A DNA stretch of 64,000 bases from Anaerolineae bacterium (GTDB lineage Bacteria > Chloroflexota > Anaerolineae > Aggregatilineales > Phototrophicaceae). The notes beneath the pieces are model-generated. The model made no database searches, was not told the DNA's origin, and was given only the letters and a program-made list of their open reading frames with translations. Below, piece after piece: positions 34,877 through 54,339 of the stretch (the stretch's first letter is position 1; each line of letters begins with the position of its first letter). The stretch covers positions 1 to 64,000 of the forward strand of contig JALHNB010000021.1 in NCBI GenBank assembly GCA_022843745.1, written 5' to 3'. Made by a program: the position numbers and the translations under genes.

Positions 34877-36217
34877 ATGCCTGCTCACGTTATTGACTCA
34901 ATTTTTTTTAAAGATTTATTTGGCTCAGAGCCGATGCGCGAGGTCTTTGATGACCTGAATCTCCTGCAAAAATGGCTGGACTATGAGGCAGCGCTTGCCC
35001 GTGCCGAATCGTCCGTCGGGATCGTCCCGCCGGAAGCTGCCGCCGAGATCACCCGTGCGGCACAGGCTGCCAGCATGGATACCGACGCTATCAAACGCGG
35101 TGTCGATAAAACCGTTCACCCGCTGGTTTCGGTCATCTGGCAGCTTTCTGAGTTGTGTCAGGGTGAGGCTGGACGCTATGTTCACTGGGGCGCGACCACA
35201 CAGGACGTGATGGATACGGCGATAGTTCTGCAAGTTAAAGAATCATTCCCTTTATTTGAAAAAACTTTAGACGATCTCATGAACGCGGCGGCAAAATTAG
35301 CCCGTGAACACCGCGACACGCCGATGGCCGGACGCACACACGGCCAGCAGGCGCTCCCGATCACATTTGGTTTCAAAGTTGCCGTCTGGTTGTCGGAAAT
35401 GAAACGCCACAAAGTGCGGTTAGAAGCCTGCAAAGAGCGCGTCCTGATGGGGCAGTTCGCAGGTGCCGCTGGGACTCTCGCCAGCGTCACCGAGAAAGGC
35501 ATCGAAATTAACGCGGGTTTGTGCGCGGAATTGGGCTTGAATGTGCCGGAAATTGGCTGGCATACGGCGCGTGATGGCTTCGCGGAATTCGCGTCCGTCA
35601 TCGCCATGATCTGCGCGACGATGGGCAAAATCGCCCACGAAATTATCGACCTGCAAAAATCCGAAGTTGCCGAAGCCGAAGAACCGTTCGAAATGGGCAA
35701 GGTCGGCAGCAGCACCATGCCGCAAAAGCGCAACCCGATGATCTGCGAGGCGATTCTGACGCTGGCTCGTCTCACACGCCGCCACGCGACGACGGCAATT
35801 GACGCGATGCTCCACGAACACGAGCGTGATTGGTCGAGTTTCCAGATGGAATGGGCGTATATCCCCGAATTGTGCGTGATGACTCACGGCGCGATGGTCA
35901 TGACGGAGCGCGTTCTCAGCGGCCTGATCGTTTACCCCGAAAATATGATGCGCAATCTGAACGCCACCAATGGCTTGCTGCTGGCGGAACGGGTGATGCT
36001 GACGCTTGGCGGGCATATAGGACGGCAGCACGCCCATGACATCATCTATGAGTCGGCGATGGCCTCGTTTGAACAGCGCGTCCCGTTTGCCGACCTGCTC
36101 AAGCAAAATCCGGCGGTTATGGAACATCTGACGGCTGAAACCATCGACTCGCTGCTCGACCCGGTGCAGTATACGGGCTTATCCGGTGTGTTCGTGGATC
36201 GTGTGGCGGGGAAGTAA
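34877..36217 (+). CDS. Adenylosuccinate lyase / 3-carboxymuconate cycloisomerase family lyase
   Basis: 446 residues. The superfamily signature GSSTMPQKRNP is present (about residues 275-285), with the early conserved blocks WGATTQDVMDTA (about 98-109) and MAGRTHGQQALPITFG (about 150-165; H in THGQ). The C-terminal ADSL_C part ends with VDRVAG. These enzymes eliminate fumarate or a similar anion, or isomerise muconate. Purine genes are not nearby, and a GntR/FCD regulator gene precedes it, so a catabolic role is more likely than purine synthesis. The exact substrate is not readable. Confidence 0.85.
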   Translation: MPAHVIDSIFFKDLFGSEPMREVFDDLNLLQKWLDYEAALARAESSVGIVPPEAAAEITRAAQAASMDTDAIKRGVDKTVHPLVSVIWQLSELCQGEAGRYVHWGATTQDVMDTAIVLQVKESFPLFEKTLDDLMNAAAKLAREHRDTPMAGRTHGQQALPITFGFKVAVWLSEMKRHKVRLEACKERVLMGQFAGAAGTLASVTEKGIEINAGLCAELGLNVPEIGWHTARDGFAEFASVIAMICATMGKIAHEIIDLQKSEVAEAEEPFEMGKVGSSTMPQKRNPMICEAILTLARLTRRHATTAIDAMLHEHERDWSSFQMEWAYIPELCVMTHGAMVMTERVLSGLIVYPENMMRNLNATNGLLLAERVMLTLGGHIGRQHAHDIIYESAMASFEQRVPFADLLKQNPAVMEHLTAETIDSLLDPVQYTGLSGVFVDRVAGK

Positions 36218-36235
36218 ATGTTTATAGGAGTTCAA

Positions 36236-37288
36236 TTACCCCGTCTCAATATTAGATCGGTTTGGATCACGAATCTCTGGGAATTTATTGCACAATTTTA
36301 CAGCTAATGCAAACTCATTTACTGGGCAATATAGTTGACGGCGGCTCTGGGTAACTTGCATTAGATTGTAATCTTCAACTTGTTCTTCATTGAGCGTGAT
36401 GCACCTATTCTCTTGTGTAATCTTATCTTTAAAATATTCCCTCTCATGCAAAATGAGAATATATTGAGGTGATAGCGGATATGCAACCTCAACACCTAAT
36501 GATCCAAATCCTACACCTTGTATGAATTTATTTAGATGCCCATACTTAACTACTGGAGCATCAGATGTGTAAAACGGCTGAGATGTTATATTTACACCTA
36601 TTCGCCAAATATGACTATAGAATATTTCCCCAAGTGTAAAAACAAAGTCAGGATCAGTAAGCGCTAGCGCAGTAATTCTATCTTCAAAGTCCCTATTATA
36701 TGTTAGGCGCACGTCATTTTCTTCGCCCCTAAACACCACATCTTGTACTGCTTGATTCATCACTTTTTCTTGTAAGTCTATTGTCTCATAACGAAACTTG
36801 GGTGTCCTTAAAGCTTGTATTGCTATTGCAAGTGCTAGATCTTTTTTATGACCCTGTTTGATTCTTTTACGCACTTGAATTTCTCGAAATACCTCTTTAA
36901 AAAGGTGATTAGTCCTACGCTCATGATCTCCTAGAACTTTCGTCTCGAGATACTGAGGGTTAGTAGCCATATCTAAGAGCTGTTCATGAATGTCTGGTTG
37001 TTCAATTTCCTTAAGAAATTGCTTGATATACCATTCATCTTTGTTTTCCAGAATAACAGCCTTTAATTTTTCTAAAAATTGTTCCGGCCCTTGTCGAATT
37101 TCATTTTCGAGAAATGCAGCATCTTCAGAGTTGGTATTATAGAAATATCTCTCCTGAGCAACTCTGGTAATATTCGTTTTGAATGAGCGCATATCTTTTT
37201 TATCAAAAGCATATAAATCGTCGCCATTATGGGTGAAGTTCTGTAGATAAAATCGTGGGACGTAATGCTGTTGTTTTACCTTAGACAT
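36236..37288 (-). CDS. DUF4238 domain protein
   Basis: 350 residues from the ATG at 37288, with GAGG upstream. It starts with the DUF4238 signature QQHYVPRFYLQNF (about 5-17). There is no membrane helix. It is markedly A/T-rich compared with its neighbours, which suggests transfer. Convergent with the lyase gene, with stop codons about 18 bases apart. DUF4238 proteins are of unknown function and often sit with accessory or defence genes; here the next elements are a zinc-ribbon cassette and an intein-bearing gene. The cassette and this gene are on the same strand. Confidence 0.75.
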   Translation of the reverse strand: MSKVKQQHYVPRFYLQNFTHNGDDLYAFDKKDMRSFKTNITRVAQERYFYNTNSEDAAFLENEIRQGPEQFLEKLKAVILENKDEWYIKQFLKEIEQPDIHEQLLDMATNPQYLETKVLGDHERRTNHLFKEVFREIQVRKRIKQGHKKDLALAIAIQALRTPKFRYETIDLQEKVMNQAVQDVVFRGEENDVRLTYNRDFEDRITALALTDPDFVFTLGEIFYSHIWRIGVNITSQPFYTSDAPVVKYGHLNKFIQGVGFGSLGVEVAYPLSPQYILILHEREYFKDKITQENRCITLNEEQVEDYNLMQVTQSRRQLYCPVNEFALAVKLCNKFPEIRDPNRSNIETG

Positions 37289-37521
37289 TTCCAACCTCGG
37301 TTATTGAGTTCGCAAGACTTGTAAGGATTAATTATGAAAATTCCAACTTTAAACTTATCAATACTTATACTATCGCTGTGATTTGGATATCATATTTTCA
37401 ACCCATCTCGATACATGAGAAGAATAATATTACCTCGAAGAAATCACAGTATTTGATATGAACGAATTTCAAATGCAATCTTTAGCTTGCTGTCATTTTC
37501 CTGCTGTATAATAAAAATCTC

Positions 37522-37807
37522 TATCGACAGAGTAGGCGGTCTGACCCGATATTAGATAGCTTTCGCTACGCTAAGGGATTGCGACACTTACCGCAAATAG
37601 GGTTGGTTTGACCAGCGTACACTTCATTCCGTGTCTTACAATAGTTACAAAACAGTTCCCCTGATTTTGTAACTTTGATAACGGGTTGAGTGTAGGTGAT
37701 CTTGTAGGGTATTCGAATTGATCGCTTCACAGGCGACCTCCTCTAAGGCTACGCATACACTAAAGACACTGAAAGTTGCGAATGTCAGACCGCCTACTCT
37801 GTCGATA
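37522..37807. mobile_element. 286-bp cassette bounded by perfect 24-bp inverted repeats
   Basis: TATCGACAGAGTAGGCGGTC plus TGAC (37522-37545) is exactly complementary to the last 24 bases at 37784-37807. The enclosed 238 bases hold a 54-codon zinc-ribbon gene on the minus strand. No clear target duplication is seen at the flanks. It looks like a small mobile or recombining element that carries its own gene, or a gene enclosed by a long hairpin. No transposase is present. The flanks are AT-rich. Confidence 0.6.
37566..37730 (-). CDS. 54-residue zinc-ribbon protein inside inverted-repeat cassette
   Basis: A GTG at 37730 follows an excellent ribosome binding site (GAGGAGGTCGCCT). The 54 codons end at TAG (37568-37566). 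The product has a basic start (MKRSIRIPYKITYTQPVIK) and two CxxC pairs: C28-x2-C31 (FCNYCKT) and C46-x2-C49 (ICGKCRN), with 14 residues between. That is a zinc-ribbon layout, likely a nucleic-acid or protein-binding knuckle. The gene fills most of the cassette at 37522-37807. I do not recognise the family. Confidence 0.7.
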   Translation of the reverse strand: MKRSIRIPYKITYTQPVIKVTKSGELFCNYCKTRNEVYAGQTNPICGKCRNPLA

Positions 37808-37888
37808 AGAAACACAAATAAATTGACAACTTCACACCGTTCGTGTAAAATTGAACAAACTAAACAAAATTACGTTGATGTGATTCAT

Positions 37889-37938
37889 GTTGGAAGACCC
37901 GAAGGCTGTTTATACTTCGGGTTTTATCTTTCCAACAA
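37889..37938. terminator. Two-part stem-loop (GTTGGAA ... TTCCAAC with inner CCCGAAG/CTTCGGG)
   Basis: Inner stem ACCCGAAG (37897-37904) with CTTCGGGT (37915-37922) followed by TTTT, and an outer stem GTTGGAA (37889-37895) with TTCCAAC, form an extended hairpin. On the plus strand it reads like an intrinsic terminator; on the minus strand it would also fold. It lies downstream of the cassette. Confidence 0.6.
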
Positions 37939-38024
37939 ATTCTGTTTAATATAGCACATAAGTTCCTCTTCGTCAAGGCATGTAGTAGCACTTGTCATAC
38001 AAACTTAAAGATAGAAGAATCTTA

Positions 38025-38075
38025 CCGATAGTCAAAAGGTGGGTATTTAAATAACCCCACCTTTTTCTATCGCCT
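38025..38075 (-). terminator. Terminator of nrdJ (also active-looking on the plus strand)
   Basis: An AAAAGGTGGGT/ACCCCACCTTTTT hairpin (38034-38066) is enclosed by CGATAG and CTATCG. T-rich arms on both sides make it bidirectional. It lies just after the stop of nrdJ at 38095. Confidence 0.75.
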
Positions 38076-38094
38076 TGTTGTATTAATATTTATA

Positions 38095-41000
38095 TTAACA
38101 TTCACTGTATCCACAACTTAAGCAGACAGCGCAGCCCTCGGCTTTCACGAGGCTGACAGTGCCGCACTCTGGGCAGAGATCAGCGCCGGAAATGATGCCG
38201 TCAGCATGAGTCCCGTTGGTATGCGCTTTTGGCTGCTCCGGCTCAACATGGTCGTGTGAGTCGCCATTCATCGGCAGGGAAAGCTGCTTGGCTTCGTTCT
38301 GCGTGAAGTAATGCGCCTGAAGTGCGCTTGCCACCACATCCGGCAGGGAAGACACACGCTGCGGCCCTAATCCCACCGAGCGCGACCCGCCGATGCCCTG
38401 AAGCTGGTCAATAATCAGCTTGAGCATTTCCATGCGATTCTGTGGCGCTGTCGTGCGCAGTTGCAGCGAGAGCATACGTCCAAGCCCCTCAGCGTCCGCT
38501 TGCAGATCACTACCGGCTTTGCCAACCGTGACAAACACCTCAAACGGGCAGCCATTTTCATCGCTGTTCATGGTGATAAACGCAGTGCCGAAGGGTGTCT
38601 TGCGGCTGACCGTCACGCCGGAAAGCTGCTTCGGACGCGCGTAAACCTTGTGCGGCGTTGTCTGTGCGACATTACCGTTGCTGCCATTAGCGCCATTACC
38701 ACCGTTTGATTTTTCCGGTTGTTTTTCTGACTCTTTGGATTTCGCCGCCATTTCGCTTTCGGCGCGTTCGTCACCCTTGAGCATCAAAACCTGCTCGTCG
38801 CGGCTGCCATCGCGGTAAATCGTCCCGCCTTTGCAGCCGAGTTCGTACATATATTTGTAGAGATCGCTCACCTGCTCGACACTGTAGTGATTCGGCACAT
38901 TCGACGTTTTTGAGATGCTCGAATCCACCCAGCGCTGAATCGCTGCCTGCACACGCACGTGTTCTTCCGGTGTCAAATCCATCGCCGTGACGAAATAATC
39001 AGGCAGCTTGGTTTGACCGGGGTGAGCCTCATGCCACTCTTTCACCATCGGCACTTGTTCTTCGTGCAGCCCCAGTCGGCTCTTGCGATAGTACACCCAC
39101 GAGAAGAACGGCTCGATTCCGGTAGAGGTGTTGACCATCGTTCCGGTCGTGCCAGTCGGCGCTTGTGTCAGGAGCGTGACATTCCGTATACCATCTTTCA
39201 AAATTTTCTCGCGAACGCCCTCTGGCATCGACTGCATGAACCCGCTTTGGACGAATTTTTCGGCATCAAACTGCGGGAATGAGCCTTTTTCTTTGGCAAT
39301 GTCGCTCGATGTTTCGTAGATCACCTGCGCCAGGAAGCCGTACAGCTTGTCGATAAACGCAATCGACTCGTCGCTGCCGTAGCGAATGCCCAGCTTAATC
39401 ATCAACTCCGCCAGCCCCATGTTATTGAGGCCGACGCGCCGTTCGCCACTCTGCTGCTTGAAATTTTCGTCGAAGAAGTAGGGCGTGGTGTCGATGACAT
39501 TGTCCAGGAAGCGGGTCGCATAACGCGCTGTCTCGCCAAGCATATCCCAGGCGACATCCTGCTTGTTTTCATCGTAAAATTTCGCGAGATTAATAGCGCC
39601 AAGATTACAAACTGACCAACCTGGAAGTGGTTGCTCGCCGCAATCAAAGCTTACATAACCATTAGTTATCCATGTTAACGTGTTAGGTTCATATACATCG
39701 AATACTTCTTCATCACGTTCAGTGTCTTGGATCGAAATCACGCTAGCCAACCAAGTAGCGCCGTTATAGTGCCAGTTTTCAGCTATTTCTTTAAGGCGAT
39801 TGGACTTCTGCGGGTGGCTGAGACCGATTTCGCTGTAGAAACGAGGAATACCCTCATTCATAATAACGACATCATACTTTATGCCTGTGCCATACATTGA
39901 CCGTCCATCATACTGGAGATTTTCATCGCGCTTGACAGTGTAGACACGTCCATGAATTCCAAATTGCAGCAATAACAATCGAACTTGCTGCGCCAATTTA
40001 TACGAGGATGTACTAAACCGCAGCATCGGATTGTCCTGTTTCATAAGGACATTCCCATCAGTTGAGAATAGGCCGTCTAAAACACCCCTTAAAAACTCTC
40101 GATCAAGTTCCATCAAGGTTTCAGGGATCGCTTTTTCAGGAGCCTTTACGTTCGGTGTCATTCCTATCTTGGCAAGCAAAGTAGAGAGTTTGTAACATTC
40201 CAATGCTACAGATTGATGAACTAAAACTGTTCCATCAGGCTGTGGGATACCCTTTTTAGCGTGGCTAACTGTAGTATGAATCCCTATTTCTTCGACAAGA
40301 TTTTGAAACTTCTGCATCCAGTCAGCTTCGTGAGCGCCGAAAGCTACCTTACATTGATAGCCATAACTATTTCGATTGGCTACTTTTCGTAGTGTACCAT
40401 CACCTATAACGGCACCAATTAGAAAACCAAGTGTCTGATCGTAAAATTCAGATACCTGTAATCCACGTTTTTGGATGTAATTGATAGCCTCTTCAGGTAA
40501 ACGGCGTGGAGAGCCGAAAGCTTCATTGGGAGAAACGAGAATCTTATCACCTTTTCGTAACTCTGAAATTGCTATCCATTCGTACTTTTTACCGCGAACG
40601 ACTTTTAACTTGTGATCCGCAGTACCTTCTAAAGAGCCACCATCTGAAAATTCAACGCGGTAAATGCGTTGCACACCATTGTTATAGACTTTTTCAATCG
40701 GTTTTAATCCGGCAGGTGTCCGAATACGCATTCCAACTTGCAAATCTCGCGCTTTTGTATAGCCGAATTCGGTTGAAACCAGCGTATCGCCTGTCACGCA
40801 CGGATTCGTGCTGATAAGCGGGTTGAAATAATAGCTGTTCGACATTTTGTTCGAGCGCTCATTAAACCACACGCCCGGCTCGGCGCTTGCCCATGCGCTT
40901 TCAATGATCGCGTTCCACACCTCACGCGCCTTGACGGTGCGATAGGTCATCACTTTATGACCGTTGTTCACCCATGATGTGAGATCACCATCCCAGGTTT

Positions 41001-41856
41001 CGTCATAAGCGGGATCGCTGGTATCCGGGAAAATCAAATCCCAATCGCTGTCGGCCTTCACGGCTTCCATAAGCTTGTCGCTTACGCCCACACTGATATT
41101 GGCATTCGTGATTTGCCCGGCTTTTCGCTTGCTGTTGATGAAGTCGAATACGTCGGGATGCCAGTCGTTGAGGATCAACATTAAAGCGCCGCGCCGACTC
41201 CCACCCTGTTCTATTAATCCTGTAACAAAGCTATAAAGAGCGCCCCACGACACCGCACCACTCGAACGACCATTCACACCCTTAACGTAAGAGTGACGTG
41301 GACGCAGACTGGAAACATTGATGCCCACGCCGCCACCGCGTGACATAATTTCGGTCATCTGCCGCAGTGTTTCGATGATTCCACCACGTGAATCACGGGG
41401 GGAGGGGATCACATAACAATTATAATAAGTGAGCGCCTGATCCGTACCTGCTGCCGCCAAAATACGACCAGCGGGGACAAATTTCCAGTCTTCCAGCGCC
41501 CAGCGGAAACGCTCTGCCCACTGGCGCTGCAATTCCGGCGTTGCTTCGATTTTCGCGACACCCGCAGCGACGCGATCCATCATCTGGCCGGGATCGACTT
41601 CAATCGGTTTATCGACATTTTCGATGTCGCGCGTCACCACCGTGCCATCCAGCAGTTCAATCGTCACGCGCGGCAGTTCCAGCGCGGTAATTTTGCCAAT
41701 TTCGCGCTGCCCGGTTTTGGAGTCCACCACCACAATAACCGTATCGTCCACTGCCAACGTGGAGCGAGTCATATCTTTTTGGGCGTAGCGATCTAAAAAT
41801 ATCTTGTAGCCCAATTCATGTAAAGCATTTTTCTTCTCGGTCTTGGGTTGAACCAT
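38095..41856 (-). CDS. nrdJ: Vitamin B12-dependent ribonucleotide reductase (class II) with intein
   Basis: 1253 residues, of which 867 belong to the reductase after removal of a 386-residue intein (residues 353-738). The host protein has the class II course: LTYYNCYVIPSPRDS (C147), GVGINVSSLRPR, GSRRGALMLILN, and the split NPC/GEQPLPG motif; the RNR loop TQAPTGTTG follows. The C-terminus ends in a zinc-ribbon-like tail (CPECGTVSLV ... CLSCGYSEC), typical of NrdJ. It reduces ribonucleotides using adenosylcobalamin and thus is oxygen-independent. nrdR is the next gene upstream (93 bases away), so NrdR repression is likely although I did not find a clean NrdR box. Confidence 0.95.
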   Translation of the reverse strand: MVQPKTEKKNALHELGYKIFLDRYAQKDMTRSTLAVDDTVIVVVDSKTGQREIGKITALELPRVTIELLDGTVVTRDIENVDKPIEVDPGQMMDRVAAGVAKIEATPELQRQWAERFRWALEDWKFVPAGRILAAAGTDQALTYYNCYVIPSPRDSRGGIIETLRQMTEIMSRGGGVGINVSSLRPRHSYVKGVNGRSSGAVSWGALYSFVTGLIEQGGSRRGALMLILNDWHPDVFDFINSKRKAGQITNANISVGVSDKLMEAVKADSDWDLIFPDTSDPAYDETWDGDLTSWVNNGHKVMTYRTVKAREVWNAIIESAWASAEPGVWFNERSNKMSNSYYFNPLISTNPCVTGDTLVSTEFGYTKARDLQVGMRIRTPAGLKPIEKVYNNGVQRIYRVEFSDGGSLEGTADHKLKVVRGKKYEWIAISELRKGDKILVSPNEAFGSPRRLPEEAINYIQKRGLQVSEFYDQTLGFLIGAVIGDGTLRKVANRNSYGYQCKVAFGAHEADWMQKFQNLVEEIGIHTTVSHAKKGIPQPDGTVLVHQSVALECYKLSTLLAKIGMTPNVKAPEKAIPETLMELDREFLRGVLDGLFSTDGNVLMKQDNPMLRFSTSSYKLAQQVRLLLLQFGIHGRVYTVKRDENLQYDGRSMYGTGIKYDVVIMNEGIPRFYSEIGLSHPQKSNRLKEIAENWHYNGATWLASVISIQDTERDEEVFDVYEPNTLTWITNGYVSFDCGEQPLPGWSVCNLGAINLAKFYDENKQDVAWDMLGETARYATRFLDNVIDTTPYFFDENFKQQSGERRVGLNNMGLAELMIKLGIRYGSDESIAFIDKLYGFLAQVIYETSSDIAKEKGSFPQFDAEKFVQSGFMQSMPEGVREKILKDGIRNVTLLTQAPTGTTGTMVNTSTGIEPFFSWVYYRKSRLGLHEEQVPMVKEWHEAHPGQTKLPDYFVTAMDLTPEEHVRVQAAIQRWVDSSISKTSNVPNHYSVEQVSDLYKYMYELGCKGGTIYRDGSRDEQVLMLKGDERAESEMAAKSKESEKQPEKSNGGNGANGSNGNVAQTTPHKVYARPKQLSGVTVSRKTPFGTAFITMNSDENGCPFEVFVTVGKAGSDLQADAEGLGRMLSLQLRTTAPQNRMEMLKLIIDQLQGIGGSRSVGLGPQRVSSLPDVVASALQAHYFTQNEAKQLSLPMNGDSHDHVEPEQPKAHTNGTHADGIISGADLCPECGTVSLVKAEGCAVCLSCGYSEC
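39643..40800 (-). other. Intein in NrdJ with LAGLIDADG homing endonuclease domain
   Basis: Residues 353-738 of the reductase interrupt the NPCGEQPL motif: the extein reads NP before it and CGEQPLPG after it. The N-terminal splice block CVTGDTLVSTEFG starts with C353; the TADH block is GTADHKLKVV (411-420). The two LAGLIDADG helices are LGFLIGAVIGDGTL (476-489) and LRGVLDGLFSTDGN (589-602), both with the acidic residue. The C-terminal block is TWITNGYVSFD followed by extein Cys. The last intein residue is Asp, not the usual Asn, and the preceding residue is Phe rather than His. The insert is A/T-richer than the extein, in line with horizontal spread. Confidence 0.93.
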
Positions 41857-46648: not shown

Positions 46649-47215
46649 CTACTTCGGAAAAATCTTCCGTACTGGCAGTTTAAAACCTGGTAAAACCAAA
46701 CCACCATCAAGTGTATCGTCAATCCCAAACGTATCGACAATCACACTGCCGTTTTCGCCCATGCGAGAAGCATCGACAATTTCATCATCGGGGTAGGCTG
46801 TCCAGACAAGTTTTGTTCCGGCCAGTAAATAAGCCCGAACTTTGTCAAATACTTTTCGCGGTGATTCACTTGGCGAAATAACTTCAACTGCCAGATCAGG
46901 CGCAGTCGGAAAAGTTGTGCCTTCTAAACCCGCCGCCCGATCTTTAGCAATAAAAGCGACATCTGGCTGCCGTACTTCATCATCACTCAATTCAAAACCG
47001 CCATCGGCGCCGCTAACGTAGCCCAGATCATGTTCGTCTACAAACGGAAGCAAAGATGATGCAAGTCGAGCGGCAATAATTGTTTTCCTCTTATTCGATG
47101 ATGCGATTTGATAGATGACTCCTTTGACGAGTTCAAGGCGCTTATTCTCATTTTCCGGTTTTTGGGCAATCTCCCAAAATTCTTCAATGGTGTAGAACTT
47201 TTCCTGAACCGTCAT
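46649..47215 (-). CDS. Uma2 family protein between ftsA and ftsZ
   Basis: 188 residues. Motifs match the paralogue at 29583: YTIEEFWEIAQKPENENKR, QPDVAFIAKDR, APDLAVEVISPSESP and the ending VLPGFKLPVRKIFPK. The predicted fold is a PD-(D/E)xK nuclease; activity is not shown. It sits within the tightly packed division operon, 8 bases after ftsA, so it is transcribed with it. Uma2 genes occur as mobile or duplicated orphan genes in these bacteria. A role in division is not suggested by the sequence. Confidence 0.85.
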   Translation of the reverse strand: MTVQEKFYTIEEFWEIAQKPENENKRLELVKGVIYQIASSNKRKTIIAARLASSLLPFVDEHDLGYVSGADGGFELSDDEVRQPDVAFIAKDRAAGLEGTTFPTAPDLAVEVISPSESPRKVFDKVRAYLLAGTKLVWTAYPDDEIVDASRMGENGSVIVDTFGIDDTLDGGLVLPGFKLPVRKIFPK

Positions 47216-53550: not shown

Positions 53551-54339
53551 CTAGCGACGAAGTTTATCAAGTCCAAATCGTTCTCTATAATCGTTTATCA
53601 CATCTAAGTCCTTGTCTGACAAATCTTTAGGGATGCCAAACCAATCCACAAAATTAGGTGGCGGTTGTTTGATGAGATAATGCTCTTTGGCAATACCATC
53701 CAATACAAGGTCTATATCCGTTGTTCTACCATCTCGTCTATTCTCTGACAAATCCCAATACCACAGTGAATAGTATTGATTAAAGCTTAGTACGTTGAAA
53801 ATAGAGATCAGTGCATCTCTGACTTGTTTTATCTGCTTTAGATCAACCTGTATTTGCGGCGGATTTTGGGGAATACCTTGTGTATTCGGCAGGACGTGTA
53901 ATTAATAATCTAGGTGAGCTAGATATTTGTCACGTATCTTCTTAAACGGTTCGACAACTTGCTTGCTTAATCGCACATCAAAGTCGTTAAAGCCTTCGGC
54001 GACTTCTCGCGTAAGTGGCAAGTGTAGATATTCGCTTATCATCCGTTGTTTAAATCTTGGAAAAGAGACGACATCTTTATTTATGTCATTCGGATTACCC
54101 TTATCAATCGCAATCCGCGCAATTATTAACAAAATCTGTTCAACATATACGCGCTTCGTGTTTTGCCACAAAATTCGCTCCGTTGATGCGAGAAAAATAT
54201 CGGATTGGAAATCACTGAGCCTTTCCAAATAGAAGATGCTGGTATTCAGGAACAGCAATTGACCATACAACTGTTGATGTTCTTTTAGATAGGCATCTTC
54301 AAAGGGATGCTTGATATAGTTGTCCAGTTCTACTTCCAT
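53551..54339 (-). pseudogene. HEPN/AbiU2-like gene split by one in-frame stop codon
   Basis: A single reading frame runs from the ATG at 54339 to the stop at 53551, interrupted only by TAA at 53904-53902. The first part codes for 145 residues ending FKKIRDKYLAHLDY; the second, 50 + 66 codons, continues with no frame change (LHVLPNTQGIPQNPPQIQV ... FGLDKLRR). The RDKYLAH piece is an R-x5-H HEPN ribonuclease motif, with the helical surroundings of the AbiU2 family. One base change (for example AAA or CAA to TAA) would restore a 262-residue protein. The block is AT-rich and sits between murG and ftsW, where such a gene is foreign. It may be a dying defence gene, or still produce the N-terminal part. 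Confidence 0.7.

Follow-up and report, generated by a model that had tools for sequence, protein, structure and literature searches.

Ribosomal RNA processing stalks are long stems, cut by RNase III, that close a loop around functional sequence. Inverted repeats also serve as the brackets of mobile insertion cassettes, which have no transposase nearby; according to PMC3913671, a target duplication is usually observed with them. One such cassette, mic-qnrD, is described in the same source as 1,519 bp long, with imperfect inverted repeats of 24 bp and a CA target duplication. A further parallel comes from the aapA/IsoA toxin mRNAs, for which PMC6733600 describes long-distance pairing between the 5' and 3' ends. 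Our literature searches found nothing on miniature inverted-repeat units with a zinc-ribbon small protein in bacteria, on miniature inverted repeats in Anaerolineae, or linking type I toxin-antitoxin systems, hok and fold-back inhibition. The locus described here had been announced, in a reading of the sequence only, as having no described counterpart. That statement is too strong, since mobile insertion cassettes are themselves bracketed by inverted repeats and lack a transposase (PMC3913671).

The unit in question is 286 bp long and lies in a 64-kb stretch of Anaerolineae DNA (the window, by which we mean the whole stretch analysed). It ends in two 24-nt arms, one at 37522-37545, on the 3' side of the gene that they enclose, and the other at 37784-37807, on its 5' side. 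The arms are separated by 238 nt and are 100% complementary, so the perfect 24-bp inverted repeats reported by the sequence-only reading are indeed there. With up to 3 mismatches allowed, the window has two occurrences of the arm and 100 shuffles have none, and the pair is the sole perfect one among the 3 inverted pairs listed for the window (at least 18 nt, within 1500 nt, from a 12-nt seed). A scan of the source assembly (7.96 Mb, 117 contigs, 98.6% complete) that tolerated 3 mismatches in 22 nt detected nothing beyond the two arms themselves, and the element was not found there a second time.

Between the arms, on the minus strand, a gene at 37566-37730 (GTG start, TAG stop) encodes a zinc-ribbon protein of 54 amino acids with cysteines at positions 28, 31, 46 and 49. 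A Shine-Dalgarno sequence, AGGAGG, can be read at 37737-37742 (minus strand), 6 nt before the start codon. The 54-codon gene, the strong ribosome-binding site and the four cysteines were all as originally described; only the start codon has been refined, to GTG. The surroundings are also AT-rich, as had been claimed: the patch at 36236-38094 has 37% GC against 52% for the window. It is bounded by a lyase gene, which ends at 36217, and by the gene for an intein-bearing ribonucleotide reductase large chain (38095-41856, minus strand, by Pfam). The intein of the latter holds a LAGLIDADG-like domain by Pfam, and the intein-splicing model falls just below its cut-off. Downstream of the unit and on the same strand is a DUF4238 gene (36236-37294, minus; Pfam PF14022, E 8e-36), a neighbour rather than an established part of the unit, whose product matches the PADLOC model DUF4238-Pers weakly (E 0.0011). 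Farther along the window, accessory genes lie within a cell-division cluster: a Uma2-family gene (46652-47215, minus), flanked by an ftsZ-like and an ftsA-like gene, and, amid mur and ftsW-like genes, one of AbiU2 HEPN-like type (53905-54339, minus).

Do the gene and the repeats belong together? When 101 genomes, the source included, were searched with the protein, matches were found in the source genome and in one other, G023, an Anaerolineae MAG of another genus in the same family. The protein at this locus (JAIOHN010000672.1) is 48% identical to that of the window, and its gene also lies between inverted repeats: 25-nt arms, 24/25 complementary and 237 nt apart, at L020:1698-1722 (the counterpart of 37522-37545) and L020:1436-1460 (the counterpart of 37784-37807). 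The ribosome-site sequence GGAGGTC recurs in the relative, and in both copies the reading frame and ribosome-binding site are contained wholly in the loop between the arms. The relative too has AT-rich surroundings (patch 42%, against 59% GC in L020). The neighbours are unlike, being DUF4238 and ribonucleotide reductase genes in the window and a 75-aa frame and a weak helix-turn-helix frame in G023. These two frames stand directly downstream of the relative's unit (L043:5273-6173, plus strand); the first has no Pfam match, and the helix-turn-helix matches of the second are below cut-off.

Because a diverged relative, in another genus and among other neighbours, keeps both the gene and the repeats, the two form one unit, which on this comparison is real and conserved. 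That they should be a unit was the original proposal, and it has held up: the one relative found keeps the repeats, and the same protein did not turn up without them, the five other matches being thioredoxin-like. Given the different flanking genes in G023, the gene and its repeats either move or are retained jointly. The source assembly gave no other copy and G023 gave the one relative, no second copy being found in its genome either; each genome is a MAG-like draft (117 contigs for the source, 1030 for G023), from which repeated copies can drop out.

Alignment of the two copies reveals how the arms have changed. Of the 25 arm pairs none is broken: 15 are the same in both copies, 8 differ on both sides, and 2 differ on one side and give G·U; with two members only, this amounts to one comparison. 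Pairing is standard in 50/50 cells of the two sequences, none of 500 shuffles is as good, and sliding the arms out of register lowers pairing to 34-49%. Such mirrored changes are expected of arms that pair in RNA or single-stranded DNA, and also of transposon ends constrained by one enzyme or of ends equalised by recombination. Read on the gene strand, the two one-sided changes give G·U, where the opposite strand would have A·C, but at the next mismatch beyond the window helix it is the gene strand that has C·A and the opposite one G·U, so any strand preference of the arms is weak. The non-coding stretch from the 5' arm to the ribosome site hardly aligns between the copies, whereas the arms align. 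Within the arm, a 13-base block, ACAGAGYAGGCGG, is conserved at 12/13 positions as against 4/12 in the remainder of the 5' arm (differences number 4 in the outer six bases, 1 in the middle thirteen and 4 in the inner six). The block is conserved beyond the need of pairing, which suggests that a protein reads it.

Our tentative reading is that the arms function by pairing, most likely as a stem that closes the RNA of the gene itself; it is only just ahead of a reading of the unit as something like a mobile insertion cassette. Pairing is supported because all arm pairs hold in gene-strand RNA, because the frame and the ribosome site lie inside the loop, and because one copy was found per genome. 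The mirrored arm changes, the poor alignment of the non-coding stretch next to well-aligned arms, the gene-strand folds and the hairpins at matching places in the two copies also speak for it. The unit would be a self-contained mini-gene whose ends stay complementary because they pair, presumably as RNA rather than as single-stranded DNA. A single transcript would span both arms, and a stem of about 25 bp would close it into a loop that holds the entire ribosome-binding site and reading frame, open to translation. The purpose of the stem may be to shield the ends; alternatively, a double-strand RNase may cut it, releasing a mini-mRNA from longer transcripts. Counting against this reading, promoters able to carry transcription through both arms have weak support. 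In the 220 nt upstream of the 5' arm, the top promoter-like site on the gene strand reaches 10/12 in the window but 8/12 in the relative, and a terminator-like site (gene strand, 37853-37827) lies between the 10/12 promoter of the window and the 5' arm.

Predicted folds of the gene strand have z-scores of -7.1 in the window and -6.9 in the relative. With the arms removed, the folds are only modestly better than those of shuffles (z -1.2, 25/200 in the window; z -2.0, 6/200 in the relative), and folding of the opposite strand is no weaker. Within the coding region, a hairpin around the codons for VT[KH]SG is present in both copies (37636-37681, minus strand, around VTKSG in the window); the energy is attained by synonymous-codon controls, which drew codons uniformly, in 9/2000 cases for the window and 4/2000 for the relative. 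The 3' side of the relative's hairpin is offset by about one codon, so covariation in the strict sense is absent. Controls attain the best local hairpin anywhere in 7/300 and 14/300 cases, respectively, and the fold of the whole coding sequence is unremarkable, being attained in 30/500 and 230/500. The stop codon is covered by a small hairpin, TAGC-GAAA-GCTA (37557-37568, minus strand; alignment columns 251-264 and reading), with a similar counterpart in the aligned relative. Rfam covariance models gave 0 matches at E<=1 across 36200-38100.

The protein is, to judge by the codons of the two copies, under purifying selection: over 54 aligned codons the differences at the three codon positions number 24/14/36, and 20/25 identical residues are encoded by different codons. 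It probably binds zinc. An AlphaFold prediction with the two sequences has a mean pLDDT of 78 (five models, 57 to 78), a pTM of 0.48 and two short strands. A sequence search of the PDB gave as the best of 4 matches with E<=10 the thioredoxin 1v98, a weak match at E 0.046; the best of 121 Foldseek matches with E<=10 is also a thioredoxin, 7d6l (E 0.51, probability 0.89), and none reached E<=0.001. No Pfam or NCBIfam model attains its cut-off on either small protein, the best PHROGs matches stand at E 0.11 and 0.013, and PADLOC returned none for the two.

These matches place the ribbon, weakly, closest to that of thioredoxin-2. The likeness lies in the motif C-x2-C...NPxCGxCRxPL and in five genome matches which, by reading, continue into the thioredoxin motif W-C-x-x-C. 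Unlike thioredoxin-2 (TrxC) with its N-terminal zinc ribbon, the window protein has no thioredoxin domain (the frame stops after the ribbon, and there is no such Pfam match), has an added basic N-terminal part, and is encoded by a gene enclosed by inverted repeats. The DNA-binding cargo of the original suggestion is thus far putative.

How rare is the unit? A profile built from the two proteins matched 12 of 98 family genomes at E<=0.1, strongly only in the source genome and in G023. The other ten have best E-values of 0.013-0.096, the range in which a second match in the source genome also falls (0.07), and were treated as chance ribbons. The same profile found 2 matches in 154 genomes of the order, both known copies, and 1 in a class draw of 396, the source. 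In a phylum draw of 400 it found 5 at E<=0.01, among them the source; G023 is not among the matches listed, and the other four are G312 and G390, matched in the ribbon part only (E 1e-4 and 2e-4; frames 146 and 159 aa long), and G211 and G351, whose matches (E 0.0085) are interrupted by a stop. The family, order, class and phylum sets overlap, and the rarity holds for these sets only. A set of 84,980 species yielded 70 candidate stretches and 6 relatives, namely the G023 contig and five thioredoxin-like proteins whose genes have no matching repeats; distant relatives can escape this search because its peptide patterns are narrow.

A covariance model built from the two copies (R1), run with strict filters on 200 relatives, recovered only its two source copies, and no weaker copy in the source genome or in that of G023. 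The paired-arm pattern matched the source locus and one place in G763 among 396 class genomes; this second match is at chance level because a reversed-pattern control matched two genomes, G043 and G546, and it was rejected, having little in common with the unit beyond the searched core. Against plasmids and phages, blastn with the element gave only matches of E about 4 (2 plasmid and 11 phage records). The window protein has no relatives in the plasmids; for that of G023, five Rhodococcus plasmids gave matches at E 0.04-0.1, in four cases annotated as thioredoxin. No relatives of the protein were found in phages. In viral contigs the paired-arm pattern gave 0 matches, and the two protein scans produced 33 and 29 candidate stretches, none of them a relative.

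The reading that competes most closely with arm pairing, and that we hold to be scarcely less plausible, is that the repeats are transposon ends, that a transposase supplied from outside moves the unit, and that the zinc-ribbon gene is its cargo. The gene stands between inverted repeats that enclose no transposase, and its two copies lie in different genera, among different neighbours, each in an AT-rich patch (37% vs 52% GC in the window, 42% vs 59% in L020). Its presence in 2/98 family genomes fits as well. The region through nrdJ is matched in 59/98 family genomes (the source included); in a search for an empty site, the nrdJ 3' flanks of 20 of the other 58 (1.9 to 8.6 kb) were seen to hold no zinc-ribbon, DUF4238, lyase, GntR, RhaM or E2 gene at E<=1e-4, and none of these flanks is syntenic. 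The conserved block inside the arms, moreover, resembles a recognition site.

Against mobility stand several observations. Directly outside the arms there is no direct repeat, and hence no target duplication, in either copy; an ambiguous TA can be read only inside the palindromic ends. No second copy or like-ended insertion sequence was found in either draft, though drafts lose repeats. A lone end-like match in G023 (3/20 mismatches) lies, by its coordinates, in a long frame, and the reversed-pattern control also gave one. Pfam detected no transposase or recombinase in the 24 neighbouring frames of the window that were kept (at least 120 aa, 24912 to 56006). Transposon tips are usually well conserved, and here the outer six bases of the 5' arm differ at 4/6 positions. 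The mobility suggested at the outset is thus not borne out: without a target duplication, a second copy, a like-ended insertion sequence or a nearby recombinase, transposition is not demonstrated. Two defining or usual features of mobile insertion cassettes were tested and are not present, and so we do not file the unit among them, although it looks like one of them and could act as such. Nor were the several copies per genome that mark a MITE found in the draft assemblies.

An unlikely further reading would make of the unit a minimal element, selfish or regulatory, whose zinc-ribbon protein recognises the conserved block ACAGAGYAGGCGG in its own paired ends, as an RNA hairpin or as folded single-stranded DNA. 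In that case 286 bp would suffice for the ends and for a protein acting on them.

Also unlikely is a locus of the type I toxin-antitoxin kind, in which the small protein would be toxic, the stem between the 5' and 3' ends would control the mRNA, and a divergent small RNA would be the antitoxin. Pairing of mRNA ends over such a distance is described for aapA/IsoA (PMC6733600). In both loci the best sigma-70-like site is upstream of the 5' arm and faces away from it. In the window it is TTGACA-17-TAAAAT (37823-37851, plus strand; 11/12), directed away from the gene, and in the relative TTGACC-17-TATACT (10/12); shuffles attain these scores in 11/2000 and 117/2000 cases. A hairpin with a T-run follows in both, read by eye in the window (37898-37925, not listed by the scan) and listed by the scan in the relative (L020 1311-1285, the whole layout being 1376-1285, minus strand). 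A divergent small RNA of about 75 nt adjoining the unit is a possible feature of this layout (37823-37925, plus strand, in the window), where the promoter-like site of the window overlaps an imperfect palindrome.

The promoter test, however, was applied once the sites had been seen, and the overall number of promoters is close to chance expectation (5 vs 2.7 and 4 vs 3.3). Predicted pairing between the small RNA and the mRNA is at chance level in the window (250/500 shuffles) and above chance in the relative (8/500), and crossed controls for antisense complementarity gave 220/500 and 288/500. The ribosome-binding site, AGGAGG at 37737-37742, lies outside the stem, unlike in aapA, and by reading the encoded protein is a basic zinc ribbon, not a hydrophobic one.

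We consider it very improbable that a site-specific recombinase flips the 286-bp segment at its repeats as an invertible switch. Known invertible segments are of comparable size and have identical arms, with which this unit is in line, but no recombinase is encoded among the 24 neighbouring window proteins scanned, no clear inner dyad common to the arms of both copies is seen, and the assembly shows one orientation only. That the repeat arose by chance around an unrelated small gene, as the lack of a second copy in the source genome might allow, can be all but dismissed in view of the perfect 24 bp (0/100 shuffles) and the second, conserved instance.

Arm pairing as the closing stem of the gene's RNA thus remains our tentative choice, and it sets the unit beside the systems with which we began. 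Like the rRNA processing stalks, it would have a long stem closing a loop around functional sequence, but the sequence enclosed is a protein gene, and cutting is putative. With the mobile insertion cassettes MIC231 and mic-qnrD, as described in PMC3913671, it shares a gene between two inverted repeats (24 bp in mic-qnrD) and the lack of a transposase gene. By the same account, mic-qnrD has 1,519 bp and imperfect repeats, as against 286 bp and perfect repeats here, and a CA duplication where none is seen at the window unit; the latter is, besides, a single copy with no partner insertion sequence found. With aapA/IsoA and hok/Sok it has in common a very small gene, a long-distance pairing of transcript ends (PMC6733600) and a possible divergent small RNA. 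It differs from them in that its stem lacks the ribosome-binding site, its protein is a zinc ribbon and its antisense RNA is putative. The unit is, in sum, a rare gene-bearing inverted-repeat unit that resembles both cassettes and fold-back mRNAs and fits the full definition of neither. Confirmation would establish a very small unit of this kind in which the arms stay complementary as their sequence drifts; it would either take the mobile insertion cassettes to much smaller sizes or show an unusual enclosure of a whole small gene by a stem.
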